A DNA stretch of 64,000 bases from Chloroflexota bacterium (lineage in GTDB: Bacteria; Chloroflexota; Anaerolineae; Aggregatilineales; Phototrophicaceae): the NCBI GenBank assembly GCA_009841405.1, contig VXLV01000032.1:82174-146173 (forward strand), read 5' to 3'. Positions 1,313 through 52,310 of the stretch are shown in pieces; positions within the stretch are counted from its first letter, which is position 1; the number at the start of each line of letters is the position of its first letter. Below the pieces are notes generated by a model that was not told the DNA's origin, made no database searches, and worked only from the letters and a program-made list of their open reading frames with translations. A program made the translations under genes and the position numbers.

Positions 1313-2230
<918 letters not shown>

Positions 2231-2365
2231 CGATAGCTATTTCCGCGCGCTATTTTGCGATGTTTCGCGTCCGGCGCCACGCGGAGATCTTCCCGCCGAC
2301 TTTCCGACGTTTGCGCGGTAGCGAGCATATTCCTCGCGCGTTTAATCAATATGGCCGTCGTTTAG

Positions 2366-2374
2366 TGTTAGAAT
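2366..2374 (+). promoter_or_regulatory. Candidate extended -10 promoter for cdaA-cdaR
   Basis: TGTTAGAAT is an extended -10 element (TGn followed by TAGAAT, 5 of 6 matches to TATAAT). It lies in the 240-bp gap between argF and cdaA, the longest non-coding stretch in this part. No good -35 is visible at 16-18 bp, as is usual for extended -10 promoters. The predicted transcript start near 2381 would leave a leader of about 90 nt before the GTG of cdaA. The rest of the gap shows nothing I can name. Confidence 0.35.
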
Positions 2375-2470
2375 AGCATAACGCAAGTCTGTCTGGCGTG
2401 TTAATAAAAGAAGCTAAGCTTGGCTGTCGGGCGGCGATGGCCGGGCCGCGCCTGAAAGCGAAGACCTGAC

Positions 2471-3346
2471 GTGGAACAGATTCTACTCATCGTGCAGGGT
2501 CTCGAGTTAACAGACATTGTCGATATCGGCATTGTCACCTTGCTCTTTTACAGCATCACCTTCATGTTTCGCGGCACGCAGGCGGTTGCGCTCTTCCGCG
2601 GGATTGCCTTGCTGGTGATCGGGCTGATTTCGGTGGCGGCAGTCCTGCGTCTGGAAGCGCTTAGCTGGTTGATCGCCAACAGTCTTACGGCATTGGCCAT
2701 CGCTATCCCGGTGATATTCCAACCGGAGATTCGGCGCGCGCTTGAGCGGCTGGGCCGCGGCTTGATCATTGGGTCTAGGCTAGCGCCGCAAGAAGCGCGC
2801 GTTTCGATCATCGCCGAGGTTTGCGTCGCCGCGGAGAAATTGTCGGCGCGGCGGCACGGGGCGCTAATCGTATTGCAGCGCAACAGCAGCCTGCAGGAGT
2901 ACATCCGCACCGGTATCGGCCTGGATAGCATCGTGTCGGCTGACTTGCTGGTCACCGTATTCTGGCCGCGCACCGAACTCCACGATGGCGCCGTGATTAT
3001 CGATCGCGGCGGGCGCATCGCCTCGGCCTCGAGCGTGCTGCCCATCACCGCCAGCCGCAATTTGCCCAACCCTAATCTGGGCACCAGGCATCGGGCGGCG
3101 GTCGGCATCAGCGAAGTTGGCGACGCGCTCTGTGTGATTGTCTCGGAGGAGACGGGCAAAATCTCGGTGGCCAACGCCGGTCGCATGATTCTCGACCTGG
3201 ACTCGCAGCGGCTGCGATTGATTCTCAACGCCTATTATGGCGTGACTGAGGAATCCTGGACTAGCTACCGCTCGCGCCTGCGCGAGGTCTTGGTTGATTT
3301 GCGCCTGCGCATGCAAACGCGCAGAAGGCAGCAGGCGCAATCATGA
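2471..3346 (+). CDS. cdaA: Membrane diadenylate cyclase CdaA (DisA_N/DAC domain)
   Basis: Condenses two ATP into cyclic di-AMP, a second messenger controlling potassium/osmolyte balance and envelope homeostasis. It has 291 aa and a GTG start after a purine-rich leader. Roughly the first 95 residues contain three hydrophobic segments (about 15-30, 38-58 and 65-83), matching the CdaA membrane anchor. The DAC domain follows, with the catalytic DGA motif at residues 172-174 and the RHR motif at 206-208. The C-terminus is basic. It overlaps cdaR by 4 nt (ATGA), so the two are co-translated. In Firmicutes the pair is followed by glmM; here der follows instead. DisA is excluded by the transmembrane N-terminus and the lack of DNA-binding domains. 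Confidence 0.93.
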   Translation: MEQILLIVQGLELTDIVDIGIVTLLFYSITFMFRGTQAVALFRGIALLVIGLISVAAVLRLEALSWLIANSLTALAIAIPVIFQPEIRRALERLGRGLIIGSRLAPQEARVSIIAEVCVAAEKLSARRHGALIVLQRNSSLQEYIRTGIGLDSIVSADLLVTVFWPRTELHDGAVIIDRGGRIASASSVLPITASRNLPNPNLGTRHRAAVGISEVGDALCVIVSEETGKISVANAGRMILDLDSQRLRLILNAYYGVTEESWTSYRSRLREVLVDLRLRMQTRRRQQAQS

Positions 3347-37253: not shown

Positions 37254-37262
37254 TGCTAGAAT
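37254..37262 (+). promoter_or_regulatory. Candidate extended -10 promoter for the sulfatase gene
   Basis: TGCTAGAAT: an extended -10 (TGn plus TAGAAT), identical at the core to the element before cdaA. It lies in the 195-bp divergent gap between glgP and the sulfatase. Transcription near 37269 would place GGGAG and the ATG at 37294 properly downstream and rule out the upstream ATG at 37261. No good -35 is visible. Confidence 0.38.
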
Positions 37263-37293
37263 GAGTCCGGCCGGCGCTAGCGGGAGCAAAGCC

Positions 37294-38709
37294 ATGAAAC
37301 GTCCCAACATCCTCATCCTTTATACCGATCAGCAGCGCTGGGACGCTCTCGGCGCCAACGGCAACAAGGAAATCATCACGCCTAATCTCGACAGACTTGC
37401 TGCCGAGGGCGTCAGCTTCACGCGTCACTTTGTGCAAAGTCCGGTCTGCATGCCCAGCCGAATCAGCATGCTGTCTGGGCGCTATCCGTCTTCGCTTGGC
37501 ATCACGCGCATGGGCGTGCCCGTGCCGGAGGATGTCGCGACCTTGCCGAAAATCCTTAGGCAGTACGGCTATCGGACCGCCAATATCGGCAAGCTGCATT
37601 TCTTGCCGCACGCCAATCGCGACCACCGCCTGCCGCACCCGGCTTATGGCTTCGATCATCTGGAGATCGCCGATGAACCGGGGGTTTACGAGGACGCCTA
37701 TCGCGCTTGGGCGCGGCGCCGGGCGCCCGAGCAAATGGATGAGATCAGCGCGGGCATACCGCCTGCCGCGGGCGTTTGGCAGCGCGTCATGGGCATCGAC
37801 GACGGCGTCGCGCATCGCGGCGATCCAGAGGGCAGGCGCGACTTTGACCGCGCTATCCCTTTCGCCGCTGATGATGGCTTGACGCACAGCGCCTTCGTCG
37901 GCGAGCGGACGATGGCGTGCGTGGAGCAGGCAGGCGACGCGCCCTTCCTGTGCATCGCCGGTTTCTATTCGCCGCACGCGCCCTGGATGACGCCGCAAAA
38001 ATATCTGGATCTATACGAGGCCGAGAAGCTGTCGCTGCCCGATTTTCCCGCAGACATCGACGCGCCGCGACCACAAGATCTGGAAGCGCCGTTTTCCGAC
38101 GCACAATTGCGGCGCGCGCGACTGGGTTACTACGCTATGATCAGCGAAGTTGACTTTTACGTAGGCGAAATCCTTGACCGGCTGGCAGCCTGTGGAAAGC
38201 GGGATGACACCATCGTCGTCTTCACGTCCGATCACGGCGAATGGCTGGGCGAGCATCTGCGTTACGGCAAGGGCTACCCGGCCGATGACGCCGTAAGCCG
38301 CGTTCCGCTCATCATTTCAGCGCCCGACGCTCAACGCGACAAGACGTATCCGGGCGTGGTGGAAGCGGTTGACATCGTCCCGACCTTGCTTGAGCTGGCC
38401 GCCATACAAAATCCGCCATTCCTGCAGGGCGAAAGTCTGGCAGGCATAATCGAGGGCAGGGGCGCGCGGCGGAAAAGCGTGGCGCTCACCGAAGGTCACG
38501 GGTGGAAGCGCCTGCGGACCGACCACTTTAGCTATCTCGTTCACGCGGACGGGCGAGAATGCCTGTGGGATATCAGCGTCGACCCGGGCGAGTACTTTGA
38601 TGTCGCGGCCAGCGGCGCCTATTCTGCCGCGCTGGCGGAATGCCGCAAAGCGCTCTTGCAGCGACTGCTGGAGATTGAGCGGCCGCTGCCGCGCGCCTGG
38701 CCCTACTAG
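37294..38709 (+). CDS. Type I sulfatase (Cys-type, CxPxR)
   Basis: Formylglycine-dependent sulfate ester hydrolase, 471 aa from the ATG at 37294 (GGGAG at 37282-37286). The maturation motif C52-M-P-S-R is complete, so the Cys can be converted to formylglycine. The metal site is supported by the N-terminal YTDQQRWD and by FTSDHGEWLGEH near residue 310. No signal peptide is present, so it would act in the cytoplasm. It is monocistronic and convergent with the DapA-family gene. The substrate is unknown; homologues act on sulfated glycans, choline sulfate or aryl sulfates. No formylglycine-generating enzyme is encoded in the window. Confidence 0.93.
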   Translation: MKRPNILILYTDQQRWDALGANGNKEIITPNLDRLAAEGVSFTRHFVQSPVCMPSRISMLSGRYPSSLGITRMGVPVPEDVATLPKILRQYGYRTANIGKLHFLPHANRDHRLPHPAYGFDHLEIADEPGVYEDAYRAWARRRAPEQMDEISAGIPPAAGVWQRVMGIDDGVAHRGDPEGRRDFDRAIPFAADDGLTHSAFVGERTMACVEQAGDAPFLCIAGFYSPHAPWMTPQKYLDLYEAEKLSLPDFPADIDAPRPQDLEAPFSDAQLRRARLGYYAMISEVDFYVGEILDRLAACGKRDDTIVVFTSDHGEWLGEHLRYGKGYPADDAVSRVPLIISAPDAQRDKTYPGVVEAVDIVPTLLELAAIQNPPFLQGESLAGIIEGRGARRKSVALTEGHGWKRLRTDHFSYLVHADGRECLWDISVDPGEYFDVAASGAYSAALAECRKALLQRLLEIERPLPRAWPY

Positions 38710-38724
38710 CGCGTTTGACCGGCG

Positions 38725-39630
38725 CTATCTGAAGGGAAACTCGGCGACCGTGTATTCGGCGACGCGCGGCCACATGCGCTCCACCGCCGCGATGTCATCC
38801 CGGTTCAAGCTGAGCTTCTGCGGGTCGCGCGCGAAGGGCGAGTCGATTACGCCGCGGCGCCACATGACATATTTGTGCAGGGAGACGCCGTAGACCATGG
38901 CGTAATTCAGCAGCGGCAGCATGCGGAAGTGTATTCGCTCGGCCGCGTCGATATCGCCCTGGGCGAACAACTCATATATCTTGACTTGGGCGTCGACCAT
39001 GCCGCCGGCGGGCATATTGCCGCAAGCGCCGCGCCGCAGTTCGTCGATCAGGTAGATGCCGTTGGCGCCGCCGAAGACGCCCAGACAGTTGCCGGCGTCC
39101 AGTTCAAGGATTTGATTGATATGCTGTAGAATCGGAACCGTTTCTTCTTTGATGTAGCTAATCCGGCTCTCGGCGGCCAGAAGCTCGACCAGTTCACGCG
39201 GCGATAGCGGCGTGCCAATGGGCGCGGGCGCGTTTTGAATGATCAGCGGGCGATCGAACTGAGCGAGCTGGCGATAGTAGTCTTGCACGGCCGGCTTGGG
39301 CGCCTTGCGCAGGTAGGGCGGCATCGCCATGAGCGCCGACGCCCCGTGCCGGCAAGCATGCTCGGCGAAGTCCAGCGCCAGCTGCAAATTCAGCCCTTGC
39401 ACGCTGACAACATAAGGGACGCGCCCGGCGATCTGCGCGCCGGCGAACTCCACTACTTGCATCCGCTCACCGTCGCTGAGGGTGAAGAACTCGCTGGCCA
39501 GCGCCGGCGTGACGAGACCATGCGCGCCGCTGACGATACAGTAGTCGATCTGCCGCGCGAAACTGGCCCAGTCAATCGCGCCGCTGTCAGTGAAGGGCGT
39601 TTGAAGTATCTGAAAGATCCCGGCAAGCAC
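38725..39630 (-). CDS. DapA/NAL superfamily protein with altered active site
   Basis: Class I aldolase-type TIM barrel of the dihydrodipicolinate synthase/N-acetylneuraminate lyase superfamily, 301 aa, GTG start after AAGGAGAG. The Schiff-base Lys is kept in ISYIKEET near residue 155. The usual catalytic Tyr position (YN.P) reads LIIQNAP near 130, so Tyr is replaced by Gln. The TT(G)E motif after strand 2 reads ALASE. It is therefore unlikely to be DapA itself. It is divergent from the mandelate-racemase-type gene, a neighbour typical of sugar-acid catabolism where DapA-family members act as 2-keto-3-deoxy-sugar-acid aldolases or dehydratases. The actual reaction is undetermined. Confidence 0.85.
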   Translation of the reverse strand: MLAGIFQILQTPFTDSGAIDWASFARQIDYCIVSGAHGLVTPALASEFFTLSDGERMQVVEFAGAQIAGRVPYVVSVQGLNLQLALDFAEHACRHGASALMAMPPYLRKAPKPAVQDYYRQLAQFDRPLIIQNAPAPIGTPLSPRELVELLAAESRISYIKEETVPILQHINQILELDAGNCLGVFGGANGIYLIDELRRGACGNMPAGGMVDAQVKIYELFAQGDIDAAERIHFRMLPLLNYAMVYGVSLHKYVMWRRGVIDSPFARDPQKLSLNRDDIAAVERMWPRVAEYTVAEFPFR

Positions 39631-39659: not shown

Positions 39660-39693
39660 TTGCCTATCAGAGGGCAATCTCCTACACTATACT
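39660..39693 (+). promoter_or_regulatory. Candidate operator and -10 in divergent gap before racemase-type gene
   Basis: An inverted repeat TTGCC-N8-GGCAA (39660-39677) lies just upstream of a TATACT hexamer (39688-39693). This falls in the 101-bp gap between the divergent DapA-family and mandelate-racemase-type genes. Such an arrangement could be a repressor site overlapping the promoter region. The arms are only 5 bp, so it may be chance. Confidence 0.28.
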
Positions 39694-39731
39694 CGTCCCG
39701 CGTTTACGAATCCAGCGACAGGAGGACCGGC

Positions 39732-40886
39732 GTGAAGATCACGCAAGTCGAAGCGATCCCCATGCGCATCAGACGGGAGGAGGCCTATCTGGGCGGGCTG
39801 CCGCCGGGCGCCGACCGCGAGGCATATTTCCTGCGCCCGCCGTATCGCGCGCTGTATTCCGCCTATTTCGAAACCGCCTTCGTCAAGATCAGCACGGCGG
39901 AGGGCGTCGTTGGCTGGGGCGAGGCGCTGGCGCCGGTTGCGCCAGAGGTCGTGCAGCAAATCGTCGAGCAGCTGCTTGCGCCCGCGTTAATCGGCCGCAG
40001 CCCGCTTGATGTCAATGTCTTGTGGAATGTCATGTACGACCTGATGCGCGAGCGCGGATATTATGGCGGCTTCATGCTTGATGCCATCAGCGCCTGCGAT
40101 ATCGCGCTGTGGGACCTCTGCGGCAAGATTCTGGGGCAGCCGGTGTATCAGCTACTGGGCGGCGCCTATCGCCAGCGGATACCCTGTTACGTCTCCGGCT
40201 TGCCGCGACCCACCGCGGAGGAACGGGTTGAGTTGGCGCTGCAGTTCACCAACGCCGGATTTAACGCCTTCAAGCTGGCGGCGGGGCACGGCGTTCGCGC
40301 TGACGCCAAGAGTGTGGCGGCGCTACGCGACGCGCTCGGCGATGAGGCGACGCTCCTGCTGGACGCGCATTGGGTGTACTCGCTGGACGAAGCGGTGCAA
40401 CTGGGCCACGCCCTGACCGACCTCGGCGTGGGTTTCTTTGAAGCGCCTATCAATCCCGAAGATGTCGAATCTCACGCGCAGTTGGCGGCGGCGGTCGCCG
40501 TGCCAATCGCTCACGGCGAGACCGAGCGCACACGCTATCAGTTTCGCCCTTGGCTGATGCAGCGGGCGGCCGACGTCTTGCAGCCCGATGTTGGACGCGC
40601 GGGCGTCTCCGAGGTGTTCAAGATTGCGACGATGGCGGAAGCCTTCAACGTCAAGATGGCGCCGCATCTCAGCGTTGGTTTGGGCGTTTGCATCGCGGCG
40701 ACGATTCACGTGGCCGCGGCCATGCCCAATCTCTACCTGCTGGAGTATCAGCCGCCGGTCTTTGAGATCGCAAATCAATTGCTCGAGTCGCCGCTGGTTT
40801 GCTGCGACGGCGGCTACGAGATCCCGGCGGCGCCCGGGCTGGGCGTGGCGCTGGATGAGCGGCGCTTGCGCCAATTGCAGGCCTGA
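39732..40886 (+). CDS. Mandelate racemase/muconate lactonizing enzyme family protein (sugar-acid dehydratase-like)
   Basis: Enolase-superfamily enzyme, 384 aa from the GTG at 39732, chosen because AGGAGG lies 7 nt upstream and the protein opens KITQVEAIPMRI. Metal ligands are D211 (LLLDAHWVY), E237 (FFEAPI) and E263 (HGETER). The general acid/base dyad is D286 (QPDVGRAG) and H312 (MAPHLSVG), as in the mandelate racemase subgroup. K181 (FKLAAG) stands where the first Lys of KxK is found; the second Lys is replaced by Ala. This favours dehydration of a sugar acid such as galactonate or arabinonate over racemisation (inference). It is divergent from the DapA-family gene, a likely partner step. 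Confidence 0.88.
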   Translation: MKITQVEAIPMRIRREEAYLGGLPPGADREAYFLRPPYRALYSAYFETAFVKISTAEGVVGWGEALAPVAPEVVQQIVEQLLAPALIGRSPLDVNVLWNVMYDLMRERGYYGGFMLDAISACDIALWDLCGKILGQPVYQLLGGAYRQRIPCYVSGLPRPTAEERVELALQFTNAGFNAFKLAAGHGVRADAKSVAALRDALGDEATLLLDAHWVYSLDEAVQLGHALTDLGVGFFEAPINPEDVESHAQLAAAVAVPIAHGETERTRYQFRPWLMQRAADVLQPDVGRAGVSEVFKIATMAEAFNVKMAPHLSVGLGVCIAATIHVAAAMPNLYLLEYQPPVFEIANQLLESPLVCCDGGYEIPAAPGLGVALDERRLRQLQA

Positions 40887-40896
40887 GCGCCGCAGC

Positions 40897-41709
40897 TTAC
40901 TCCGGTACCAGCGGCGCCTTTGGGCGCACGATCTGCAAGCGCTCGGGCGTCAAGCGCTCGACCAGCTCGTCCGATACCTGATAGCCGTGCCTGAAGTTGC
41001 CCCACGATGGGCCGTAACGGAAGACGATGATGCGGCGGTCGCCAATGTTGCGGCGTTCAGCTGACCCGTGGCAGAGCGCGTCCACGAAGAGCAGGGCGTC
41101 GCCGGCGTCCATGTCGATGTGAATGGCGCCCTCTACACCGTCGACTGACGCCGCCTCCCCGCGCATCCGGCGCCGTTCAGAGTCGGGATGCGGGAAATGC
41201 GCCTTGTGGCTGGCGGGCACGACCATGGTGCCGCCATCGCCCGGGCCAATATCCGTCAGCGCCATCAAGATGTTGATCTGCCCGCAATGAAACATGCCGT
41301 TGTAGAAGCGGAACTGGGTGCGCTTTGTGCCCTCGTGGCCGCCGGAATGCAGCCCGATCGCCTCGCCGGGTCCCCGTATATTGGCAAAGCACTCGTCGAT
41401 GAAGAGCGGGCCATGATTGTAGTCAAAGGTATTGGCGCCGCCGACGAAGAACTTGACCTTTTCGATCCAGGAGGGATGATCAATGAGACGCTCGAAGGCT
41501 TCGCCGCCCTCGTAAATCTGCTGCAAGTTCAAGCCGTCGTTGTCGCCGAAGTTGTGGCCGTGCACATAACCCTTCCATTCGCCGTGCCCGACCGGCAGCA
41601 GCGCGTCGATGGCGGCGTTGATATCGGCGACTTCGCCGGCTGACAAGGCCCCTTTGAGCACAAGAAATCCGTTGAGATCGAAGAAGTAGCGTTCTCTGTC
41701 GCTGACCAT
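40897..41709 (-). CDS. Phytanoyl-CoA dioxygenase family protein (PhyH), HxG variant
   Basis: Fe(II)/2-oxoglutarate dioxygenase fold, 270 aa from the ATG at 41709, which has GAGGAG upstream; the longer track start overlaps the flavoprotein gene. The double-stranded beta-helix is recognised by LTDIGPGDGGTMVVPASHK near residues 151-169. The first metal His appears to be H121 in GLHSGG and the second H214 in CHGSAERR. The usual acidic residue two positions after the first His is Gly (HSG, not HxD), so the iron site may be altered. Last gene of the nine-gene minus-strand operon, 26 nt behind the flavoprotein gene. The substrate is unknown; homologues are abundant in marine and sponge-associated bacteria. 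Confidence 0.82.
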   Translation of the reverse strand: MVSDRERYFFDLNGFLVLKGALSAGEVADINAAIDALLPVGHGEWKGYVHGHNFGDNDGLNLQQIYEGGEAFERLIDHPSWIEKVKFFVGGANTFDYNHGPLFIDECFANIRGPGEAIGLHSGGHEGTKRTQFRFYNGMFHCGQINILMALTDIGPGDGGTMVVPASHKAHFPHPDSERRRMRGEAASVDGVEGAIHIDMDAGDALLFVDALCHGSAERRNIGDRRIIVFRYGPSWGNFRHGYQVSDELVERLTPERLQIVRPKAPLVPE

Positions 41710-41735
41710 GTGTCTCCTCACATTGCTTTTGGCGA

Positions 41736-44024
41736 CTACTCGTAACATTGCACGGCGAACACCGCCGCGGGAGCGTCGCCCTGGACTTTGACGACCTCCA
41801 GCTGCAACTGGTCGGTCTCCAGCGGCTGGTCGAATTCGATCGTGTTCACCGTTTGATGATTGTGTTTGACTTCCGACACTATCGCGCCGGCGCCGTCCTT
41901 GATGCGGTAATGCTCGACGACAAAGGGCATTGTCGCTTCGGGATGCCCTCGCAGCGTGGTTTCCATCGCGTGGTCAAAGTCGGTGTCAAACATGAGGGTG
42001 ACTTTGCTAATGCTCTGCGGGACGACCCACTTGATATCCAGTTGCGGTGCCGGGTCGTCAGGATCCGCGACCCAGGCATTGGCTTGAGACGTCGGCCGGG
42101 CGACGCCGTTGCAGATATTCCGGGCATCAAAGCCGTTGATCGGCGGATCAAACTGCATCGCCAGATTATGGCCGGCGGGCCGGCGCGGCGGCGTCCAGAA
42201 TTCGAAGCTTTCGACGCCGATATCCGGCGGCGGAATCTGCGTCCGGCGGTATTGCAGCGCCAGCAAGCCGCTGACGCGCGTCCGGCTTAAATGCAATCGC
42301 AGCGCGGGATTCGCCATGACGCAGACAAAGACGTAACGGCCCTCGTCAATCAACTCGTCGAAGTCGAGCTCGATCCGCTGGTTGTCGCCCGCCGGCAGTT
42401 CGAAAGCGAGCGCCTTTAAGGTGACGTCCGGTGTGTGGTTGTCGAGTTTACTGCTCATACGCAGCTCTACATCAAGCTGGGTCGCTTCGTTCGCGTCGAC
42501 CGTGATCGTCATGCGCGGTACGCGGCCGCGCTGCAGGGGCAGCATCTGCGCGTAGGGGCGCACTAGCGCATGCAGCGGGCCATCGTCGGGCAGGCGCTCC
42601 AGGCAGAGTTTGCTTGATGCGGTCACCTGGGCTTGCCGGACCAGGTTGACTTCATCATCCAGCTTGAATTGCGGGATGTAGCCGCCGACGCGCTGCAAAT
42701 CGCGCTGGAGCAGCTTCATGTGTTCGGGCTCGGCGATATCGCGCGGCAGCAGGTTGCGCCCCACGCAATGCGCCGCCGCCATGCCGACCGACTGCGCCGC
42801 GGCAGCCAGGGTTAGCATGACGCGGGTCGAGCCGAATGCCACGTGCGAGGCGCTCATGATGCGTCCCGCAATGAAGAGGTTGCGGATATTCTTGCTGTAT
42901 TGCGTTCGATAGGGCACTTGATAAACGCCCTTGGCATGCCACTGATCGCAGCCGGGCAACTCGCTGAAGACGCCGTCGGCCGGATGCAAGTCGATCGACC
43001 AACCGCCGAAGGAGATGGCGTCGTAGTGCTGGCGCTGCTCGACAACGTCTTGCTGGATCATCATGTAATCGCCTTCAAAGCGCCGGCTTTCGCGCTTGCC
43101 CGGGATATGACCGACCCATTCCAGCGTCAGCGTCTCGGCCTCCGGGAATTCGCCCGAATTCTTGATGTAATTCCAGACGCCGTAGACAACCTTCCACAAC
43201 TGCCACTTGATCGTCTCGGTTTCGTGAACGGTATCCAGGCGTCCGCCATATTCGATCCACCACAGGCGGCAGCCGTCGGTGGCCGTATTGAAACTGCGGA
43301 AACGGGGTATCTGCGTGATGTCATCCAGCGCGTAACTCGGCGGCACAAACTTGACCGGCTCGCCGATGTCTTTGCTGTAAAAGTAGATCGAATGGCCGAG
43401 CAGGTAGCCGTATTCTTCGCTCGGCGCGAATTTCTCGCCGAATTCCTCGCGCGATTCGGCGCCCATGCGGAAGGCGGCGCCGGCTTGAAAGGCGATGATC
43501 CCATCGCCAGAGGCATCGCAGAATAGCGGCGCGTAAAGTTCATACTGCGTTGAATTTTGGCTGCAGAAAGCGGTTACTGACTTGATCGTCTCGCCGTCCG
43601 ACTTGCTTACGCGCACCGCGGCGGTATTGAGCAGCAGCGTAATATTGTCCTCTTCGACGACCTTTTCCAGCAAGACGGTATCAAATATCAGGGCGTTGCC
43701 TTCTCTGTTGCGATACATATTCTCGACCAGGATCTCGTCGATGACGCCGCCCTCGCGCGCCCAGCGGTTGTTGTTGTTCATGTGTGAAGTCGCGCCCAGC
43801 GCCCAAAGGCGGACTTCGCTGCTGGCGTTGCCGCCCAGCACGGGCCGGTCCTGAACGAGCGTGACTTTAATGCCGGCGCGCGCGGCCGTGATGGCGGCGC
43901 ATGTGCCTGCCAGGCCGCCGCCCACGATGACCAGATCGCTGTCAATGCGCACCGTCTTGGGCGGGCGGACCTCCGGCGAGAAGGGTTCGCTCAGCATTCG
44001 CGGGATCTGATTGTCTTGCTTCAT
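41736..44024 (-). CDS. FAD-dependent oxidoreductase with large beta-rich C-terminal region
   Basis: Flavoprotein of the FAD_oxidored type, 762 aa. The dinucleotide-binding motif is VIVGGGLAGTCAAITAARAG near residues 32-51, followed by GGNASSEVRLWALGA. A second FAD-contacting segment is IRNLFIAGRIMSASHVAFGSTRVM near 385-408. Residues from about 470 onward are beta-rich with no obvious cofactor motif and may bind carbohydrate or act as an accessory domain. No signal peptide. It lies 11 nt behind the sulfatase and 26 nt before the PhyH gene in the nine-gene operon. The family includes poorly characterised enzymes often found beside sulfatases and glycosidases; the substrate is unknown. Confidence 0.85.
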   Translation of the reverse strand: MKQDNQIPRMLSEPFSPEVRPPKTVRIDSDLVIVGGGLAGTCAAITAARAGIKVTLVQDRPVLGGNASSEVRLWALGATSHMNNNNRWAREGGVIDEILVENMYRNREGNALIFDTVLLEKVVEEDNITLLLNTAAVRVSKSDGETIKSVTAFCSQNSTQYELYAPLFCDASGDGIIAFQAGAAFRMGAESREEFGEKFAPSEEYGYLLGHSIYFYSKDIGEPVKFVPPSYALDDITQIPRFRSFNTATDGCRLWWIEYGGRLDTVHETETIKWQLWKVVYGVWNYIKNSGEFPEAETLTLEWVGHIPGKRESRRFEGDYMMIQQDVVEQRQHYDAISFGGWSIDLHPADGVFSELPGCDQWHAKGVYQVPYRTQYSKNIRNLFIAGRIMSASHVAFGSTRVMLTLAAAAQSVGMAAAHCVGRNLLPRDIAEPEHMKLLQRDLQRVGGYIPQFKLDDEVNLVRQAQVTASSKLCLERLPDDGPLHALVRPYAQMLPLQRGRVPRMTITVDANEATQLDVELRMSSKLDNHTPDVTLKALAFELPAGDNQRIELDFDELIDEGRYVFVCVMANPALRLHLSRTRVSGLLALQYRRTQIPPPDIGVESFEFWTPPRRPAGHNLAMQFDPPINGFDARNICNGVARPTSQANAWVADPDDPAPQLDIKWVVPQSISKVTLMFDTDFDHAMETTLRGHPEATMPFVVEHYRIKDGAGAIVSEVKHNHQTVNTIEFDQPLETDQLQLEVVKVQGDAPAAVFAVQCYE

Positions 44025-44035
44025 GGGTATTCCCT

Positions 44036-45448
44036 TCAGGTTATAGCCGCCAGCCAGTCCACCAACTGCGATTGCATTTCGCCGCGGATAGCAGAATACT
44101 GCGGATTATCCCACAGATTGCTCAATTCGTGTGGATCATTTTTCAAGTCATAGAGTTCGCCATTGCCGTTTTCTTCGTCAACCAACTTCCAGCGATGATT
44201 GCGCAGCATGCGAATGCGCCCTGACAGCGAAACCGGATTGCCTTCCCATGACAGGCGGTCATTGGACGGATTGGTAAATATCGTGTTGGACAGCCCTTCG
44301 TCAGTTAAGCGTGCTTCATCGTAAGGCTTGCCCGGCACACCATATTCGCTGAACGCAAATGGACGTATTGCCCCACCTTTGCCGCCATCGCGCAGGCAGG
44401 GCAGCAAGTTGACGCCTTGCGCTTGCGGTGGGTAGGGCACGCCGGCTGCAGCGGCGAAAGTAGGCAGCAAATCGATATGCGAAGCGAAGCGATCATCTAG
44501 CCGACCGGCATCGATTTGACCTTGCCAGCGCACGATCAAGGGTACGCGAACAAGCACATCGTAAAGCGCCGGACTCTTGGCCAGCAGCCCGTGATCGCCC
44601 TGGTAATCGCCGTGATCGCTGGTGAAAACCAACAGAGTGTTGTTCGCCAGACCGCGCTCATCCAGGAAGTCGAGTATCTTGCCGATCTCGGCGTCTATCA
44701 AAGTTACCATGCCGTAATAGACCCGCCGCATCAAATTGATTTGCTCTTCCGCGAAGGGGATGACTGCGTCATTGTTGCGCTGATGAAACTGCTGCCGGAA
44801 GGGCTTGCCCGCCGTTGCCAAGGCGTCGGATTCGACTGCCGGCGGCGGTAAATCAGCATACATCGAGAAGAACGGCTCTGGCGCTTCGTAGGGCGTGTGC
44901 GGATACAGATAGGACAGCCAGAGAAAGAAGGGCTTGTCGCTATTGCCGTGCTGTTCCATGAAGCGCAGCGCCGACGCGGTTTTGGCATGTTCGGCCGTGA
45001 TGGATGTCCAGACAGGCTCCTCTGCCAGACGCGGATAATATTGCTCGCGATGTCGCGCCCAGCGTTCGTAATGGTCCCACTCCGGATGATGTGGCAGCGT
45101 GGGCGCCTCGTCCCATTCGTCCATGTCGGCCGGCGTCAAAAACGAATGATTCTTGCCGCTCAAACCTGTGACATACCCGGCGTTGCGCAGCATCTTGGGT
45201 ATGTCGGTCGGCGGACGCAGTCCGGGGTGATGATTGGAATAACAGCGGTTCTTGCTCGACCATTGCCCGCTATGCAAGCACCAGCGGTTCACCAGGCTCA
45301 CCGGCGAAGGCGTGGTCGCGTAAGTGAAAGCCACCCCTTCGCCGACCAGGCGGTCCAGGTTTGGCGTGTGAATATGCCCGTTCCCAAGCGCGCGTATCGT
45401 GTCGAAACGCTGCTGATCCGTGTAGATCAGGAGGATGTTGGGTCTCAC
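44036..45448 (-). CDS. Sulfatase-family protein with non-canonical maturation motif (SLVNR)
   Basis: Alkaline-phosphatase-superfamily sulfatase, 470 aa. The N-terminal NILLIYTDQQRFDT and the VFTSDHGDYQGDHGLLAKS segment are as in type I sulfatases. The maturation core, normally C/S-x-P/A-x-R, reads S51-L-V-N-R55: the nucleophile position is Ser and the third position is Val. It may be a Ser-type sulfatase, or a hydrolase that does not use formylglycine (for example a phosphonate or phosphodiester hydrolase relative), or inactive. No signal peptide. It starts 3 nt after the upstream PhyH stop and ends 11 nt before the flavoprotein start. Contrast the two Cys-type sulfatases in the window. Confidence 0.85.
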   Translation of the reverse strand: MRPNILLIYTDQQRFDTIRALGNGHIHTPNLDRLVGEGVAFTYATTPSPVSLVNRWCLHSGQWSSKNRCYSNHHPGLRPPTDIPKMLRNAGYVTGLSGKNHSFLTPADMDEWDEAPTLPHHPEWDHYERWARHREQYYPRLAEEPVWTSITAEHAKTASALRFMEQHGNSDKPFFLWLSYLYPHTPYEAPEPFFSMYADLPPPAVESDALATAGKPFRQQFHQRNNDAVIPFAEEQINLMRRVYYGMVTLIDAEIGKILDFLDERGLANNTLLVFTSDHGDYQGDHGLLAKSPALYDVLVRVPLIVRWQGQIDAGRLDDRFASHIDLLPTFAAAAGVPYPPQAQGVNLLPCLRDGGKGGAIRPFAFSEYGVPGKPYDEARLTDEGLSNTIFTNPSNDRLSWEGNPVSLSGRIRMLRNHRWKLVDEENGNGELYDLKNDPHELSNLWDNPQYSAIRGEMQSQLVDWLAAIT

Positions 45449-45451
45449 GTC

Positions 45452-46300
45452 CTACAGGCCCATGCGATCGGGCTCGACGCCGTGCTCGGCGCACCATTCG
45501 TTCAGCGGGTTCAGGCCGCCTTGTGGCTGGAACTCCTGCGTGTCATCCACCTCTTCGCCGACGAGGTACTTCTCGATATCGCTGAGCTTCTCGACAAAGG
45601 ACAGCTCCTGCTTGATGTAATCCATCGGCTTTAGCCAACGGTAGCCGTAGCCGATCATCACCGCCTTGCGCGTAAAGTCAGTGAAATTCGGGGCGCCGGC
45701 GTGCCAGGTGCGGTACTCGAAGATGACACAATCGCCCGGATTCAGCAGCGGCTCGATGGCGTTGGCCGGGTCAGCAGCGCCCGCCGGGATATCGATTCGT
45801 TCCTTCAACTGATTGCTGCCTGGCGCGAGCATCGTCACACCCGAGTTGGGCTGGCTGAGATCCGTCAGATAGAAGGCGCACTTCAAGCCCATGCGCGGAT
45901 AGTTTCCCTGGCCCAAGTCCAGCTGAGTGCGGCCGCCGTCGCGGTGCCAGCCGGGCCGTCTGATGCTATCGGGAGTGCCGGGCGGGTCGGGATGGCGGTA
46001 GATGAGGTGGCTGGTGGACAGCTGCAAGTTGGCGCCCATCAGTTGGATGACCAGCGGCAAGGCGACGGAGTTCGTCAGCAGCGGGATGAAGGCGTCGTCC
46101 ATCACGATGCAATTGCGAAAGCCGTCGTAGTATTCGCTCGTTTGATAGCGATTGAAGCGTTCGTCCGTGGCGATGAGTCGGTCGCCCGCTTCCAGCAGAC
46201 GTCCGATCAGGTCTGCGTCAAGCGCGTTACGCACAATGAGATAGCCCTCGTCATGAAACTGCTTGCGCTGCGCTTCTGTCAACTCGACAAAACCATTCAT
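45452..46300 (-). CDS. Phytanoyl-CoA dioxygenase family protein (PhyH), canonical iron site
   Basis: Fe(II)/2-oxoglutarate-dependent oxygenase, 282 aa from the ATG at 46300; the track ORF extends upstream into the previous gene without a ribosome site. The facial triad is intact: H119-R-D121 in GWHRDGG and H200 in RTWHAG, with R211 (TRKAV) placed to bind 2-oxoglutarate. LTDLSQPNSGVTMLAPGSNQ near 145-164 is family-typical. The N-terminus (LTEAQRKQFHDEGYLIVRNAL) is the classic PhyH opening. It lies 37 nt after the unknown gene and 3 nt before the sulfatase. It should hydroxylate a small molecule; the substrate is unknown. Confidence 0.88.
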   Translation of the reverse strand: MNGFVELTEAQRKQFHDEGYLIVRNALDADLIGRLLEAGDRLIATDERFNRYQTSEYYDGFRNCIVMDDAFIPLLTNSVALPLVIQLMGANLQLSTSHLIYRHPDPPGTPDSIRRPGWHRDGGRTQLDLGQGNYPRMGLKCAFYLTDLSQPNSGVTMLAPGSNQLKERIDIPAGAADPANAIEPLLNPGDCVIFEYRTWHAGAPNFTDFTRKAVMIGYGYRWLKPMDYIKQELSFVEKLSDIEKYLVGEEVDDTQEFQPQGGLNPLNEWCAEHGVEPDRMGL

Positions 46301-46337
46301 GCTTTCGCTCCCGAAACCGCCTAACTTTTCATCTTTG

Positions 46338-47723
46338 CTAAGTATAGGTGAAATACGCGGTGGCGACACATTCTTGCTCGCTGCGAATTCGCGCCCAGTG
46401 CGCGCTGTAGCCCGGTGGAAAGGCATGATACGCGTAACCATTCGCCGCGACAGAAAAGCTGTCGTAGCGCTTCCAGCCGCCGTTGCCCAGGAAATCGACC
46501 TCCAGCACGAATTCGACGGCGCTGTCGCTTTCGTTGCTCAAGTGCAAGACTTTCTGGTCAAAGCCGGTCATCAGATAGGGATCGGAAGTCTCGCCGGCGT
46601 CGACTTCGTCTTCCAACCAGACGCCGCCCCAACCGGCCGGCTTGCCGAACTGCCAGAGGTCGTCGGTCTTGCCGAAGTACAGTCCAGACTGCGGCTCGCC
46701 AGCCAGATGATTTGCGCCGTGATGCGGGCTGGCGTTGTCCGAGCCGAGCGCCAACATGCCGCGATAGGTGCAGAAATCGCCAAGAACCCAGAGATGCGTC
46801 GAAATGGGACGGATGCCCCAGATGCAATTCTCGTAAGCCCAGGGCGATAATTCGTAAAACATGCCGTGGCAATCCATGATGAAGCGCTCATGGTCGACTT
46901 CGCGAATGCGCGGCCACTCGGTCTGCCACATGTGGTCGAAGCAGTGGCTGGCCTTGGGCAGACGGTAGCGCTTCCACTCGCCGTTGGCTTTCGTGAATAC
47001 TTGCAGAATCGCCGAGCGTTTGTCCCAGCCCATGGCGAAAATCGTGCCGGCGAAATCGCCGCGGCCATTCACCTCGATGAAGGGATTGCGCTCGATAATG
47101 GTCCAGTTTTCGCCGTCCCACTCCGCCAGGCGACCGGCCGCTTCCGCGCCCGTGAAGTCGCGCTCGTCGTAGCTATTGTTCGCGACCACGACCCGCCCGA
47201 AGTTACTATACGCCGCCTTGAAGTGGGCGTACTGATGATCGGGAACGCCCAGTTCCAGCGTGAGATCGGCGATGAGATTCGTCCGCAGACTGTGCACGTT
47301 CATCTCATAAAATTCGCCCTCCATGCCCAACATGTAGACCATGTCGTTCGGGCTTGTGAGATGGCGCATGGTCGAGCAAATCCGCACTTCAACCAGGTCT
47401 TGCGCGGTGCGGACATTGCCGGCCGCGTCGATGACATGCGGCCCGATGATGAGCTGGTTGGACTGCCAATGCACCATGCGATTGGTGTAGGTGCCGACGT
47501 AGCTGGCCGGGTGCCTGCTGATTTCAAGTTGTTCGTTGATCGAATAGAGCCCGGTTCCTACTCCGCTGGCGGATTTATGCGAGACGTAGGTGACCAGCCA
47601 GAGTTTGCCGGCCCAGGCCATCATGGCGCCGATGCCGCATTCGCTGCGGGGCGGGCCCAGCTCGGCCGAAAGCGCCAGATGGGGGAATACGCCGCTCGCG
47701 TTCAAGTATTGATTGTTTGCCAT
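46338..47723 (-). CDS. Conserved-looking protein of unknown function, possible beta-propeller
   Basis: A 461-aa protein from the ATG at 47723 (GCGAGAG upstream). I do not recognise the family. The sequence is rich in Trp, Tyr, Gly and Asp, with repeated short strands such as GKLWLVTYVSH, DMVYMLGMEGEFYEMN and GRVVVANNSYDERDF, suggesting a beta-propeller. There is no signal peptide and no membrane segment. Its start overlaps the sulfatase upstream by 22 nt and it ends 37 nt before a PhyH gene, so it is locked into the nine-gene operon. It could be a lyase, lactonase-like enzyme or binding protein for the same substrate. No catalytic residues are evident. Confidence 0.75.
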   Translation of the reverse strand: MANNQYLNASGVFPHLALSAELGPPRSECGIGAMMAWAGKLWLVTYVSHKSASGVGTGLYSINEQLEISRHPASYVGTYTNRMVHWQSNQLIIGPHVIDAAGNVRTAQDLVEVRICSTMRHLTSPNDMVYMLGMEGEFYEMNVHSLRTNLIADLTLELGVPDHQYAHFKAAYSNFGRVVVANNSYDERDFTGAEAAGRLAEWDGENWTIIERNPFIEVNGRGDFAGTIFAMGWDKRSAILQVFTKANGEWKRYRLPKASHCFDHMWQTEWPRIREVDHERFIMDCHGMFYELSPWAYENCIWGIRPISTHLWVLGDFCTYRGMLALGSDNASPHHGANHLAGEPQSGLYFGKTDDLWQFGKPAGWGGVWLEDEVDAGETSDPYLMTGFDQKVLHLSNESDSAVEFVLEVDFLGNGGWKRYDSFSVAANGYAYHAFPPGYSAHWARIRSEQECVATAYFTYT

Positions 47724-49039
47724 TTGCTCTCGCTTTCTTTGTGGGTAGGCGTCAGTGTGTTCGTTGATTGCGTCCGCTCGCCGCGCTCGACGCGCGCGCG
47801 CCAGGAAGACAAGGCCGCGATCAGCCGCTCCCGAACAGTGGCGCAAGCCGGGTCGTCGAGGCGATTGTCGAGTTCATACGGGTCGACGCTTAGCTGATAT
47901 AGCGCGGCCGGTTCCAGCCTGCGTCCGCGCGTGATCAGCTTCCAGTCTTGCGCGCATGCGCAGAAGTCGTGATATTCGCTGATGACGACGCGATCTTCAT
48001 CGCTCGCGCGGCCTTCGATCAGCGGGCGCAGGGAGGCGCCTTCGCCGGGGCCAGCGGCGTTGCAGCCGGCGTAGTCAAGCAGAGTCGGCATCAGGTCGAC
48101 TGTCGAGACCGGCGCGTCGACGCGGAGACTTCCAGCCTGGCGCGGCGCCCGCGCGATGAGCGGAATCCGCAATGCTTCTTCATACATCACGCCCTTGCCG
48201 AATCGACCCTGAGCGCCGGCCATCTCGCCGTGATCGGAAGTGAAAACGACCAGCGTGTTGTCGCGCAAGCCAAGGCGATCCATTGCTGCCAGCAAGCGTC
48301 CGAAGGCCGCGTCCAAATGGCTGATCTCGCCAAAATAGAGCTCGCGGAAGCGCTGCGCGTCATAGTCGGCCCGCCATGCCTCATGCTTGAACCAGGCTTC
48401 TCGATCAGCGTTGGCTTCCGTTACCAGATCGCGATTCTCGTAGGGCGCGAGGAACTCCGCCGGCGGGGAGCAGGGCGGGTGCGGCGCTTGATAAGACAGC
48501 AGCATGAAAAATGGCCCGCCGGCGACGGCTGCCCGCTCCATTTGGTCAAGCGCGATATCGGTCAAGCTGTCCGTCTCATGTCCGGGCATTTTGACGGCAT
48601 TCTCCGGGTCATCCGCCCAAATGAGGCCGGCCCAGTGATCGACGTGATGGCTCTCCCAGCCGATGAAGTGCTGAAAGCCGGCGCGCTGTTCGGGCGGTAC
48701 CCGGCGATTCATCTGGGGCGCGCCGCTGAGATGCCACTTGCCCACATAGTAAGTTTCGTAGCCGCCGGCATTCAGGTGATCGGCCAGGCTTGTGATGCCA
48801 TCCGGGAATGCCTGCCCGTTCTCCAGCACGCCGGTTTGCGAGGGGTACTGGCCGCTGAGCAGGCAGCCACGGTATGGCGTGCAGACCGGCGCTGTCGTTA
48901 TCGCCCGCTCGAATACGGCGCTTTCAGCGGCAAAGTTTTCGAGATGCGGCGTCTCCACCAGGGGATGGCCGTAAGTCGGCAGCCAGCGCGCGCCAAGCTG
49001 ATCCGCCAAGATGAAGACGATATTGGGAGGCGCGTCCAT
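47702..49039 (-). CDS. Type I sulfatase (Cys-type, CxPxR)
   Basis: Formylglycine-type sulfatase, 445 aa from the ATG at 49039. The track extension to 49270 reads through the end of the permease gene and is rejected. The maturation motif is C53-T-P-Y-R57, followed by GCLLSGQYPSQTG. The metal site is supported by NIVFILADQLGARW and VFTSDHGEMAGAQG. No signal peptide, so it should act in the cytoplasm. It lies 11 nt behind the CUT1 permease gene and overlaps the next gene by 22 nt, directly linking import with desulfation. Substrate unknown. Confidence 0.92.
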   Translation of the reverse strand: MDAPPNIVFILADQLGARWLPTYGHPLVETPHLENFAAESAVFERAITTAPVCTPYRGCLLSGQYPSQTGVLENGQAFPDGITSLADHLNAGGYETYYVGKWHLSGAPQMNRRVPPEQRAGFQHFIGWESHHVDHWAGLIWADDPENAVKMPGHETDSLTDIALDQMERAAVAGGPFFMLLSYQAPHPPCSPPAEFLAPYENRDLVTEANADREAWFKHEAWRADYDAQRFRELYFGEISHLDAAFGRLLAAMDRLGLRDNTLVVFTSDHGEMAGAQGRFGKGVMYEEALRIPLIARAPRQAGSLRVDAPVSTVDLMPTLLDYAGCNAAGPGEGASLRPLIEGRASDEDRVVISEYHDFCACAQDWKLITRGRRLEPAALYQLSVDPYELDNRLDDPACATVRERLIAALSSWRARVERGERTQSTNTLTPTHKESESKWQTINT

Positions 49040-49050
49040 GAGCGGCAGTC

Positions 49051-49929
49051 TCAGCCCTTTAGGCCGGAGATATTCGCGCCCTGAATGAATTGCTTTTGGA
49101 AGAGGAAAAACACGATCAGCACCGGCAGCACCATCATGGTGGAGGCCGCCATCTGTTGATTGTAGATGCCGCCTTGGCCTGGCAACGACGTGAATTTGTA
49201 CAGCCCAATCGCCAGCGTGTGCAAGTCTGGGTCCTTCAGATAAATCAGCGGGCCCAGAAAGTCGTTCCAACTGTTCTGGAAGCTCAGGATGGCGATGACC
49301 ACAATTGCCGGCTTGGCCAGCGGGATCATGACCTGGGTGAAGATGCGCACTTCGCTCGCCCCGTCAATCTTGGCGGCGTCGAGCAAATCCTGAGGAATGC
49401 CAAGGAAGAACTGCCGGCAGATGAAAATATAGAAGGCGTTGCCGAAGAAATTGGGCACGATCAGCGGATAGAAAGTGTCGATCCAGCCGATGGCGTCATA
49501 AGCGGCGTAGACCGGAATCAGCCGTACCGCGAAAGGCAGCATCAAGGTCGCCAGCAGAATCAGGAACAGCGTGTCTCTAAAGGGGAAACGAAAACGCGCG
49601 AAGCCGTACGCCACAATCGTGCAAGAGCCGATGTCGCCGATGAGCGAGAATACGGTGATGAGCATGGTGTTGCGGAAGGTCGTGCCGAAATTCCAGAACT
49701 TCAGCGCCTCGGTGAAGTTTTCCGGCATCCATACGCGCGGGATCCACTGAACCGGGAAGACACCGACTTGGTCCAGGGGCATGAAAGACGACATGAACAT
49801 CCAAAACAAGGGCGCCAGGAACCACAGGCTCATCACGATCAGCAGCCCGTAGAGCAGGATGCGCCCGGCGATGCGTGTCAGCCGGAAGACCGAGTCCCGT
49901 TGCAGGAAGCCGGTTTCGCCTTGGATCAT
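49051..49929 (-). CDS. Sugar ABC transporter permease 2 (MalG/UgpE type)
   Basis: Channel subunit, 292 aa from the ATG at 49929. The 490-aa track ORF that includes it begins in a wrong-frame shadow of the upstream permease. The start overlaps that permease's stop by 4 nt (ATGA). Six transmembrane helices are predicted. The EAA loop is LDAAKIDGASEVRIFTQVMIPLAKPAI, followed by FQNSWNDFLGPLIYL. The tail FIQGANISGLKG is canonical. It is the third gene of the nine-gene operon, followed 11 nt later by a sulfatase. Confidence 0.92.
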   Translation of the reverse strand: MIQGETGFLQRDSVFRLTRIAGRILLYGLLIVMSLWFLAPLFWMFMSSFMPLDQVGVFPVQWIPRVWMPENFTEALKFWNFGTTFRNTMLITVFSLIGDIGSCTIVAYGFARFRFPFRDTLFLILLATLMLPFAVRLIPVYAAYDAIGWIDTFYPLIVPNFFGNAFYIFICRQFFLGIPQDLLDAAKIDGASEVRIFTQVMIPLAKPAIVVIAILSFQNSWNDFLGPLIYLKDPDLHTLAIGLYKFTSLPGQGGIYNQQMAASTMMVLPVLIVFFLFQKQFIQGANISGLKG

Positions 49930-50900
49930 GCGCCGTTCTCCCCGCCTTGATAAAAGACCCAGCGCTGCGATGTCATCACGATGACGGCTGTGAAGAAAAA
50001 GATGATCATGAAAAGAATCCAGGCCAGCGCGGACGAGTAGCCCATCTGCGGCGGCAAGTATTGAAAGGCGTGATCGAATAAATGCAGCACGTAAACTCGG
50101 GTGGCGTCGCGCGGGCCGCCGGTGCCGTCTGTCATGATGAATACTTGCGTAAAGACCTGGAAGGCGTTGATGATATTGATGAGGATGTTCAAATAAATGG
50201 TGGGCGTCATCAAAGGAATAGTGACGCGCAGCAGACGCTGGAAGATATTGGCGCCGTCGATCTTGGCGGCATCGTAATACTCTTCCGGGATGCCCTGCAA
50301 ACCGGCCAAGAAAATCACCATCGTCACGCCGACCCAGGTCGTGCTCATGATCAGGTAGCCGATCATGGCAATATCGGGGTCGGCAAACCAGCGAAAGCGT
50401 GGCAAGCCAATCGCGTAGAGCAGCGAGTTTAGCAATCCCGCGCGCGCGTTCAGCACATACAGCCAGATCACGGACAGGGCCACAATCGGCACAACCGAGG
50501 GCAAATAAAAGAGTGTGCGCCACAAGCCGAGCAAGCGAACCTTGGCGTTGAGCAGCAGCGCCAGCGCGAAGCCCAGCACAATCCGAATCGTCACCGAGCC
50601 GACGACATAGACGGCAGTATTTCTCAAGGATTTCAGGAAAAGCGGGTCATCGCTGAAGATATGTTCGTAATGCTCCGTGCCGATCCACTCCGGTGGCTGC
50701 ACGATATTGTATTTGGTGAAGCTCAGGAGGAATGAAGCCACGAAGGGAAAAAGCGAAAACAGCAACACGCCGACAATCCAGGGGCTGATAAAGAGCAGGC
50801 CCATTTTGGCTTCGCGCTTGCGCATCGGCGAAAGGTCGCGCCAGCGTTCCCGCCGGCGTCCGCGCAGGGCGCTAATTTGCGAGCCGAATGAGGTGGCCAT
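49926..50900 (-). CDS. Sugar ABC transporter permease 1 (MalF/UgpA type)
   Basis: Channel subunit of the third CUT1 importer, 324 aa with six predicted transmembrane helices after a very basic N-terminus (RGRRRERWRDLSPMRKREAK). The EAA loop is YDAAKIDGANIFQRLLRVTIPLMTP near residues 210-235. No clear Shine-Dalgarno precedes the ATG. The upstream stem-loop (50934-50963) lies between it and the binding-protein gene, and its end overlaps the second permease. Confidence 0.9.
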   Translation of the reverse strand: MATSFGSQISALRGRRRERWRDLSPMRKREAKMGLLFISPWIVGVLLFSLFPFVASFLLSFTKYNIVQPPEWIGTEHYEHIFSDDPLFLKSLRNTAVYVVGSVTIRIVLGFALALLLNAKVRLLGLWRTLFYLPSVVPIVALSVIWLYVLNARAGLLNSLLYAIGLPRFRWFADPDIAMIGYLIMSTTWVGVTMVIFLAGLQGIPEEYYDAAKIDGANIFQRLLRVTIPLMTPTIYLNILINIINAFQVFTQVFIMTDGTGGPRDATRVYVLHLFDHAFQYLPPQMGYSSALAWILFMIIFFFTAVIVMTSQRWVFYQGGENGA

Positions 50901-50933
50901 CGTTTATCCGCTGGATTTACGAGCTACGACAAA

Positions 50934-50963
50934 GGTGTGGGACATCAGTCGACGCCCCACACC
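50934..50963 (-). other. Intercistronic stem-loop between binding protein and permease
   Basis: GGTGTGGG (50934-50941) and CCCACACC (50956-50963) form a perfect 8-bp stem around a 14-nt loop, 18 nt after the binding-protein stop in the direction of transcription. Only TTT follows, so at most weak termination is expected. This is the fifth element of this kind in the window. Confidence 0.6.
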
Positions 50964-50981
50964 AATTGAGATTGGCTCGGT

Positions 50982-52310
50982 TTAGCCGTATTCTTCCCAG
51001 AAGGCGTCCAGCAGGCCCTGGATTTCGCCTTCAGCGTTGGCCAGCGCGTCTTCAATGCTGCTGTCGCCGAAGAGAACATCCTCAACCATGCGATTGATGA
51101 TCTGGTTGGCTTCCGGCTGTACCGGCGACACGGCGACGAGATTATCCAGTGCGGCCACGCCGAGCAGCGACTCCGCGCGCGGATGTACAACGCCGTCCTT
51201 CTCGTAGCCATTGCAATCGACCAGCGGCGACGGACGCTGCTGCTGCTGGATGAACCAGCAGGCGCCCTGACCCTCGACTTCCGCCGTCAACCACTTGACC
51301 AGCTTCCAGGCTTCGTCGGGATGGGCGGCATTCTTCGGGACCATATAGCCCCAGCCACCATGGGCGCTGCCGCGGCGCTCGGCGTTTCCGTTCGGGCCAT
51401 AAGGAATCGGCGCCACACCGTAATTCAGGCTTTCGGCATGGTCTTCAACTTGGAAGAGCGTCCAGGAACCGTTGATTTCCATGGACACCAGGCCTTGAAT
51501 CAGCGGCCCCTGGTCAAATTCGCCCGCCATTTCCCAGAAGGCGTTGACTTCTTCAATGCCGTAGTTGATTTCAGCCATGGCTTGCATGAACCCAAGAGCC
51601 TGCGCGCCGGCTTCATTGTTGATGGTGATGGTGCGCAGATCACTGCTGATCCAGTCTTGTCCGTTGGCGTTGAGCCAGGTTAGGAAGGCGCCAGGGCCGC
51701 TGGTGGATTGCGCGTTCAAGCCAATGCGCTCGAGGAAGCTGCCATCGCCGAGTCTAAGCGTTTCAGCGGCTTGCAGCATCTCGTCCCAGGTTTCGGGGAA
51801 GCTGTCGATACCGGCTTCGGCGAAGTGATCGGTGTTGTACCAAACGATATTGTAGGCGCCGCCGCCCGGCAAAGGGAGAATCCAGGTCTGGCCGTTGAAC
51901 TGCGTGCCGGCGAATTCGGAAGCGTGGAAAATCGCCGGATCAACGCCGTCAGCAGCCATATAATCATCCAGCGGGATGATCGACTCGGTAGCGGCGAAGA
52001 AGGGCAGGTCTTGACGGCCAAACATCGTTACGTCAGGCGGGTTGCCGGCGGCGATAGCGGCCAGCAGATTCTGCAAGCGGTTGTCCCAGGGCAAGAATAC
52101 GTTGTCGACGCAGATGCCGGGATGCGCGTCTTCAAAAGCTGCGACTTGCTGTTCCTGCAATGGAATGCGGTTGCCGCCCCAGTGATGCCAGTACGTCAGC
52201 GTAACATCGCCCTCGCAGTCGGGGTTCTGCGCCGAGACCGTCATCGAGAGCGGCATGACCGCCAGGACCATGACCGTGACAAATAACATAAGGGTCGCTT
52301 TCTTAAGCAC
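50982..52310 (-). CDS. Sugar ABC transporter substrate-binding protein (family 1)
   Basis: Exported binding protein heading the nine-gene operon, 442 aa, GTG start with AAAGGAG upstream. The Sec signal peptide is LKKATLMLFVTVMVLAVMPLSMTVSA. The mature N-terminus DVTLTYWHHWGGNRIPLQEQQVAAFE is typical of family-1 sugar-binding proteins, as is AAIAAGNPPDVTMFGRQDLPFF. Because its operon continues into two sulfatases, the ligand is probably a sulfated or otherwise modified sugar-like compound (inference). No ATPase is encoded with it. The 140-bp gap upstream holds only weak promoter-like hexamers. Confidence 0.9.
   Translation of the reverse strand: MLKKATLMLFVTVMVLAVMPLSMTVSAQNPDCEGDVTLTYWHHWGGNRIPLQEQQVAAFEDAHPGICVDNVFLPWDNRLQNLLAAIAAGNPPDVTMFGRQDLPFFAATESIIPLDDYMAADGVDPAIFHASEFAGTQFNGQTWILPLPGGGAYNIVWYNTDHFAEAGIDSFPETWDEMLQAAETLRLGDGSFLERIGLNAQSTSGPGAFLTWLNANGQDWISSDLRTITINNEAGAQALGFMQAMAEINYGIEEVNAFWEMAGEFDQGPLIQGLVSMEINGSWTLFQVEDHAESLNYGVAPIPYGPNGNAERRGSAHGGWGYMVPKNAAHPDEAWKLVKWLTAEVEGQGACWFIQQQQRPSPLVDCNGYEKDGVVHPRAESLLGVAALDNLVAVSPVQPEANQIINRMVEDVLFGDSSIEDALANAEGEIQGLLDAFWEEYG

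Follow-up and report, generated by a model that had tools for sequence, protein, structure and literature searches.

The window, by which we mean the whole stretch of 64,000 nucleotides analysed, comes from an uncultured Chloroflexota bacterium and encodes a sulfatase-superfamily hydrolase that carries Ser51-Leu-Val53-Asn-Arg55 at the site of formylglycine maturation. The reading that we favour, by a modest degree, is that this protein is a working cytoplasmic, S1-like sulfatase of the Ser type, matured by an anSME, in which a single-base substitution would have put Ser in the place of the Cys precursor. Its activity has probably been retained, because the only intact sulfatase-activating enzyme of the genome belongs to the type that accepts either Cys or Ser.

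The gene, its product and the altered motif

The gene is an exact open reading frame on the minus strand (44036..45448), encoding 470 aa from a GTG start that sits 3 bp past the stop of the upstream PhyH gene. PF00884 is matched by residues 3-337 (E=3.8e-43, 148.3 bits against a cut-off of 25) and the Pfam family Phosphodiest likewise matches the protein. In the AlphaFold model (pLDDT 94.5, pTM 0.94) the protein adopts the usual fold of sulfatases and phosphonate monoester hydrolases; a helix begins at residue 51, where the catalytic helix is expected to start. With a whole-domain profile match and a matching fold, the protein belongs to the sulfatase/alkaline phosphatase superfamily and should be filed there.

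Among solved structures, its best relatives are found in the sulfatases and the phosphonate monoester hydrolases. The top Foldseek matches in the PDB, with E values down to 3.6e-35, are SpAS1, phosphonate monoester hydrolases, SpAS2, choline sulfatase (including C54S) and PsS1_NC (including C84S). The phosphonate monoester hydrolases and the dimeric sulfatases SpAS1 and SpAS2 (PDB 2w8s, 4uph, 4upi, 4upl) are the best fold matches at 25-27% identity; they differ from our protein in length, 504-555 residues being modelled there against 470 aa here, and in the nucleophile motif. Choline sulfatase (PDB 6fny, 7pth) also matches in fold, at 24-25% identity, but the TIGR03417 score lies far under the curated cut-off (193.6 against 433.45 bits) and the operon is of a sugar-catabolism type. 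The score against PehA (NF045661, phosphoric/sulfuric ester hydrolase) is 191.7, the curated cut-off being 900 bits.

The altered motif occupies 45284..45298 on the minus strand (codons AGC CTG GTG AAC CGC) and lies within SPVSLVNR, residues 48-55. As the initial annotation had stated, two sulfatases of the same region read SPVCMPSR (37261-38709, plus strand) and APVCTPYR (47702-49270, minus strand) in its place. The annotation also held that the combination of Ser and Val fits neither textbook maturation rule; for the pair this is correct, but it is Val at the third position alone that breaks the anSME rule, which Ser at the first obeys. In fact, the S1 group uses Cys or Ser as formylglycine precursor, and Ser51 is one of the two; the metal and substrate-site residues apart from the nucleophile are also those of the group. 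In the strict sense the protein is nevertheless no more than a candidate member of the formylglycine S1 group, because L-V-N at positions 2-4 departs from the published pattern [CS]-[STACGMV]-[PA]-[STAGF]-R (PMC5066984).

Operon and genomic neighbourhood

The sulfatase lies inside a minus-strand operon for the import and desulfation of sulfated compounds. An ABC importer comes first, followed by a Cys-type sulfatase, a conserved protein, PhyH and the SLVNR sulfatase; an FAD oxidoreductase and another PhyH gene complete the operon. The importer is a sugar-type ABC transporter (49051..52310) composed of a solute-binding protein (50982-52310) and permeases (49926-50900 and 49051-about 49900). The Cys-type sulfatase (47702..49270), which carries APVCTPYR, probably has its true start downstream of the first listed codon. 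The conserved operon protein (46338..47738) shows 75-88% identity to its genus relatives; neither Pfam (E<=1) nor the PDB sequences gave a match for it. The first PhyH-family gene (45452..46441), Fe/2-oxoglutarate dioxygenase-like, ends 3 bp upstream of the sulfatase; the FAD-dependent oxidoreductase (PF12831; 41736..44024) starts 11 bp downstream of it and overlaps by 13 bp with the second PhyH-family gene (40897..41748).

After the operon come an enolase-superfamily sugar-acid dehydratase-like gene (39660-40886, plus strand) and a DHDPS-family aldolase (38725-39630, minus strand), both conserved with the operon, then the third sulfatase of the region, which is Cys-type and carries SPVCMPSR (37261..38709, plus strand), and a phosphorylase. 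The gene order around the sulfatase is kept in the genus orthologues.

No N-terminal extension precedes the sulfatase domain, so that the protein is probably cytoplasmic and desulfation in the cytoplasm after import is its likely setting. The substrate is probably a sulfated sugar or sugar derivative.

Maturation enzymes

A single anSME is encoded in the genome (locus L149, positions 1342-2640, minus strand; G000 C65:5852-6958), scoring 493.5 bits against TIGR03942, whose cut-off is 349. It is intact: the radical SAM CxxxCxxC motif, the CD-x-YV Asp region and the SPASM cysteines are all present, and its best PDB match is 4k36, a solved anSME. It also bears a C-terminal zinc motif of the SEC-C type, with PDB matches to SecA C-terminal peptides. 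Each of the 34 genus genomes carries this enzyme, and no other intact maturase was seen in the genus; these genomes hold 13-36 sulfatases each, and the tested members encode cytochrome oxidase.

The FGE was rejected as maturase. Only two proteins with the FGE domain (PF03781) occur in the genome and both were checked: one is membrane-anchored, with CalU17 as its nearest match, the other joins the domain to an N-terminal region that appears TIR-like by eye, and neither has the catalytic Cys pair of an FGE. Eight further genus copies of the membrane-anchored protein were read and all lack the pair. The fusion protein (locus L148, positions 1489-3201, minus strand; G000 C16) has copies of similar length across the genus and might be a defence or signalling protein. 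One 8.5 Mb genome placed in the genus (G396) is twice the size of most others and holds 24 FGE-domain proteins instead of two; it is possible that it represents a mixed bin or a distinct lineage.

Since anSMEs act on Cys or Ser (PMC6388578) and Ser is the precursor in 21.1% of the 4058 FGly-sulfatases of SulfAtlas (PMC5066984), a serine at position 51 is ordinary where an anSME is present. The unusual part is Val at +2, which is common to the constrained Cys orthologues described below; in SulfAtlas this position is Pro in 87% of sequences and Ala in 369, the other residues each accounting for less than 1% (PMC5066984). A literature search on Val at +2 and on sulfatases of sponge Chloroflexota gave no usable data.

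Orthologues and the origin of Ser51 and Val53

The orthologue family was assembled from a species-level genome collection and from searches at class, genus and family level. The sulfatase has an orthologue in 10 of the 34 genomes of the genus, which are Anaerolineae/Chloroflexota drafts; in the family search no genome outside the genus passed the score used for orthologues. Three orthologues carry CLVNR (L060, 87% identity; L062, 84%; L059, 81%), four CLANR (L067, L030, L063, L064) and two CMANR (L061, L065), and more distant relatives read CMPAR in Pelagicoccus (L066), CTPSR in Cytophagales (L068) and CAPSR in Luteitalea (L069). The CLVNR, CLANR, CMPAR, CTPSR and CAPSR proteins form one protein family with ours (44-87% identity), and within the genus the CLVNR and CLANR members occupy the same operon; all of them keep Cys at the nucleophile, where our protein has Ser. 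The CLVNR orthologues also depart from the published maturation pattern.

In the tree, the window sulfatase pairs with L060, beside L059, L067 and L062. The tree and the orthologue motifs therefore indicate that Pro changed to Ala and then to Val at +2 in a Cys enzyme. The Ala found at +2 in L067 would then mean either that the position reverted or that Val was acquired on more than one occasion. The single-base change of TGC to AGC, which replaced Cys by Ser, is confined to the window sulfatase's own branch. In L067, from a sister species, a frameshift in a run of nine T breaks the orthologue near residue 175 (L067 8001-9411; G397 C14:29823-31233); the break is either real or a sequencing error.

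We sampled 119 distinct sulfatase motifs in the genus, including those of the source genome: 105 are CxPxR, 7 CxAxR, 3 CxVxR, 1 SxVxR and 3 Thr-type. The three CxVxR motifs belong to the orthologues and the SxVxR is that of the 44036-45448 gene; in this sample, no other Ser-type sulfatase occurs and Val at +2 is found only in the window sulfatase's clade. L023, L026 and L007, sulfatase-superfamily proteins of the same genome, have Thr as the nucleophile residue (TVPAR, TVPTR and TTPAY), a residue from which no formylglycine is possible; they are probably phosphoesterase or transferase types.

A conserved SLVNR clade, which the initial annotation had raised, must be rejected: the motif is absent from every orthologue and every sampled genus sulfatase, the closest orthologues having CLVNR and the wider family CLANR, CMANR, CMPAR and CTPSR. 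The annotation had also proposed that canonical motifs in homologues would reduce the finding to a one-off mutation or a misassembly. This applies to Ser51, a one-off substitution, and not to Val53, a trait of a small clade. A viral or mobile origin was rejected as well, the viral-contig scan having returned only distant relatives (<=35% identity).

Residue 57 (codon 45278-45280, minus strand) is usually Ser, but L067 and all members of the Val53 clade have Cys there; because of this distribution, Cys57 would have preceded or accompanied the drift of the motif. That the nucleophile moved to Cys57 was rejected: L067 pairs Cys57 with CLANR, Cys occupies that column in 7 of 39 sequences, and residue 57 sits farther down the helix that begins with residue 51.

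Selective constraint and alternative explanations

Comparison of the window sulfatase with L060 gives a dN/dS of 0.18, where pairs of Cys-bearing clade members give 0.15-0.17; a mutation late on the branch would be invisible to this measure. Unambiguous changes number 18 synonymous and 18 nonsynonymous on the branch of the window sulfatase and 28 and 28 on that of L060; the CLVNR orthologues L060, L062 and L059, which combine Val53 with Cys, are as constrained as the window sulfatase. Besides the nucleophile, all ten catalytic positions are retained (D11, Q12, R55, N72, K99, H101, H184, D278, H279 and K291). C51S is the sole departure of the window sulfatase from the columns invariant in 11 orthologues, which themselves depart at 0 to 14, and in the 39-sequence alignment it departs at 1 of 44 strongly conserved columns, again residue 51. 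General decay of the gene is unsupported by dN/dS, by the branch counts and by the conserved-column departures. This is not the pattern expected of a gene that has long been without function, and it would be compatible with a very recent change.

Such a change is the basis of the strongest rival, a recent loss of function in which Ser51 stays unconverted and substrate is bound with little or no turnover, decay being at its beginning; we judge it unlikely, but to be taken seriously. Replacement of Cys by Ser is in fact the standard inactivation that keeps structure and ligand binding, as in the ligand-bound C54S choline sulfatase and C84S PsS1_NC of the PDB, and such mutants were made to block FGly formation in E. 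coli (PMC6189696). Moreover, Ser51 is unique to the source genome, and the gene may be dispensable, since the copy of the sister species (L067/G397) is split by a frameshift. Against this, no other conserved column is disturbed, the branch shows no relaxation, the operon is intact and the genome has a maturase of the Ser-capable type.

It is improbable that the serine is an error of consensus or assembly, or a minor strain allele, with TGC (Cys) as the true sequence and a plain CLVNR sulfatase as the product. The codon is one base off the orthologues in a single draft genome of 173 contigs, and no second genome of the species was found in the species-level collection or in the class, genus and family searches; yet the flanking coding sequence is clean, the frame is open, and random errors would rarely strike the nucleophile codon alone among conserved sites.

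Still less probable is catalysis by an unoxidised Ser51 as in alkaline phosphatase, the protein being a phosphatase, phosphodiesterase or phosphonate hydrolase. Relatives in the alkaline phosphatase superfamily use Ser or Thr, promiscuous phosphonate monoester hydrolases are among the closest folds, and Phosphodiest matches, as noted. But the residues of formylglycine-type catalysis K99, H101, H184 and K291 have all been retained, every orthologue has Cys, nothing points to adaptation to phosphate, and two more sulfatases of the region are Cys-type. A non-catalytic partner or sensor protein, for which the altered nucleophile is the sole point in favour, can practically be dismissed, the rest of the catalytic site being retained and nothing suggesting pairing with another sulfatase. 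Both of these suggestions, a different phospho/sulfo hydrolase and a non-catalytic partner, came from the initial annotation and gained no positive support, given the retained catalytic residues, the intact purifying selection and the anSME of the genome.

Discussion

The active, anSME-matured Ser-type sulfatase that we prefer would result from a point switch of Cys to Ser in an anSME-only lineage in which Val at +2 is tolerated. The anSME belongs to the radical SAM enzymes, needs no thiol and can oxidise either residue, Cys or Ser; it would turn Ser51 into formylglycine even with Val at +2. Once hydrated, the aldehyde would attack sulfate esters imported by the adjacent ABC transporter, and the desulfated product would pass to the co-encoded oxidoreductase, dioxygenase and sugar-acid steps.

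Several observations weigh against this reading. Ser is seen in one genome only, and Val at +2 lies outside [PA], among residues that are each rarer than 1%. The 119 sampled motifs include no other Ser-type sulfatase, and so give no sign that this anSME uses Ser in vivo. According to PMC5066984, the Ser-type sulfatases of prokaryotes are confined to facultative or strict anaerobes, yet the genus encodes cytochrome oxidase subunit I. The narrower claim, that the protein is a natural anSME substrate breaking the P/A rule at +2, caught midway between Cys-type and Ser-type in an anSME-only lineage, we hold tentatively, at a little under an even chance.

Ser-type sulfatases are already known, and non-P/A residues at +2 are rare. 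Klebsiella AtsA is an example of a Ser-type FGly-sulfatase matured by an anSME. The window sulfatase resembles this type in its Ser precursor, Arg at +4, sulfatase fold and an anSME in the genome; it differs in having Val instead of Pro or Ala at +2, in a Ser that came from a point change inside a Cys-type family and stands amid Cys-type relatives, and in a genus that encodes an aerobic terminal oxidase.

If the protein is non-functional, the case is a recent point inactivation without general importance. If it is functional, the recognition rule for formylglycine sulfatases would widen to SxVxR and CxVxR beyond [CS]x[PA]xR, and SLVNR and CLVNR, at 87% identity, would offer a clean natural pair for what an anSME needs at +2. 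It would also illustrate a possible drift between Cys-type and Ser-type in an anSME-only lineage; should Ser51 be matured naturally, the anSME would tolerate a beta-branched residue at +2, and the sulfatase type could change within a species-level branch.
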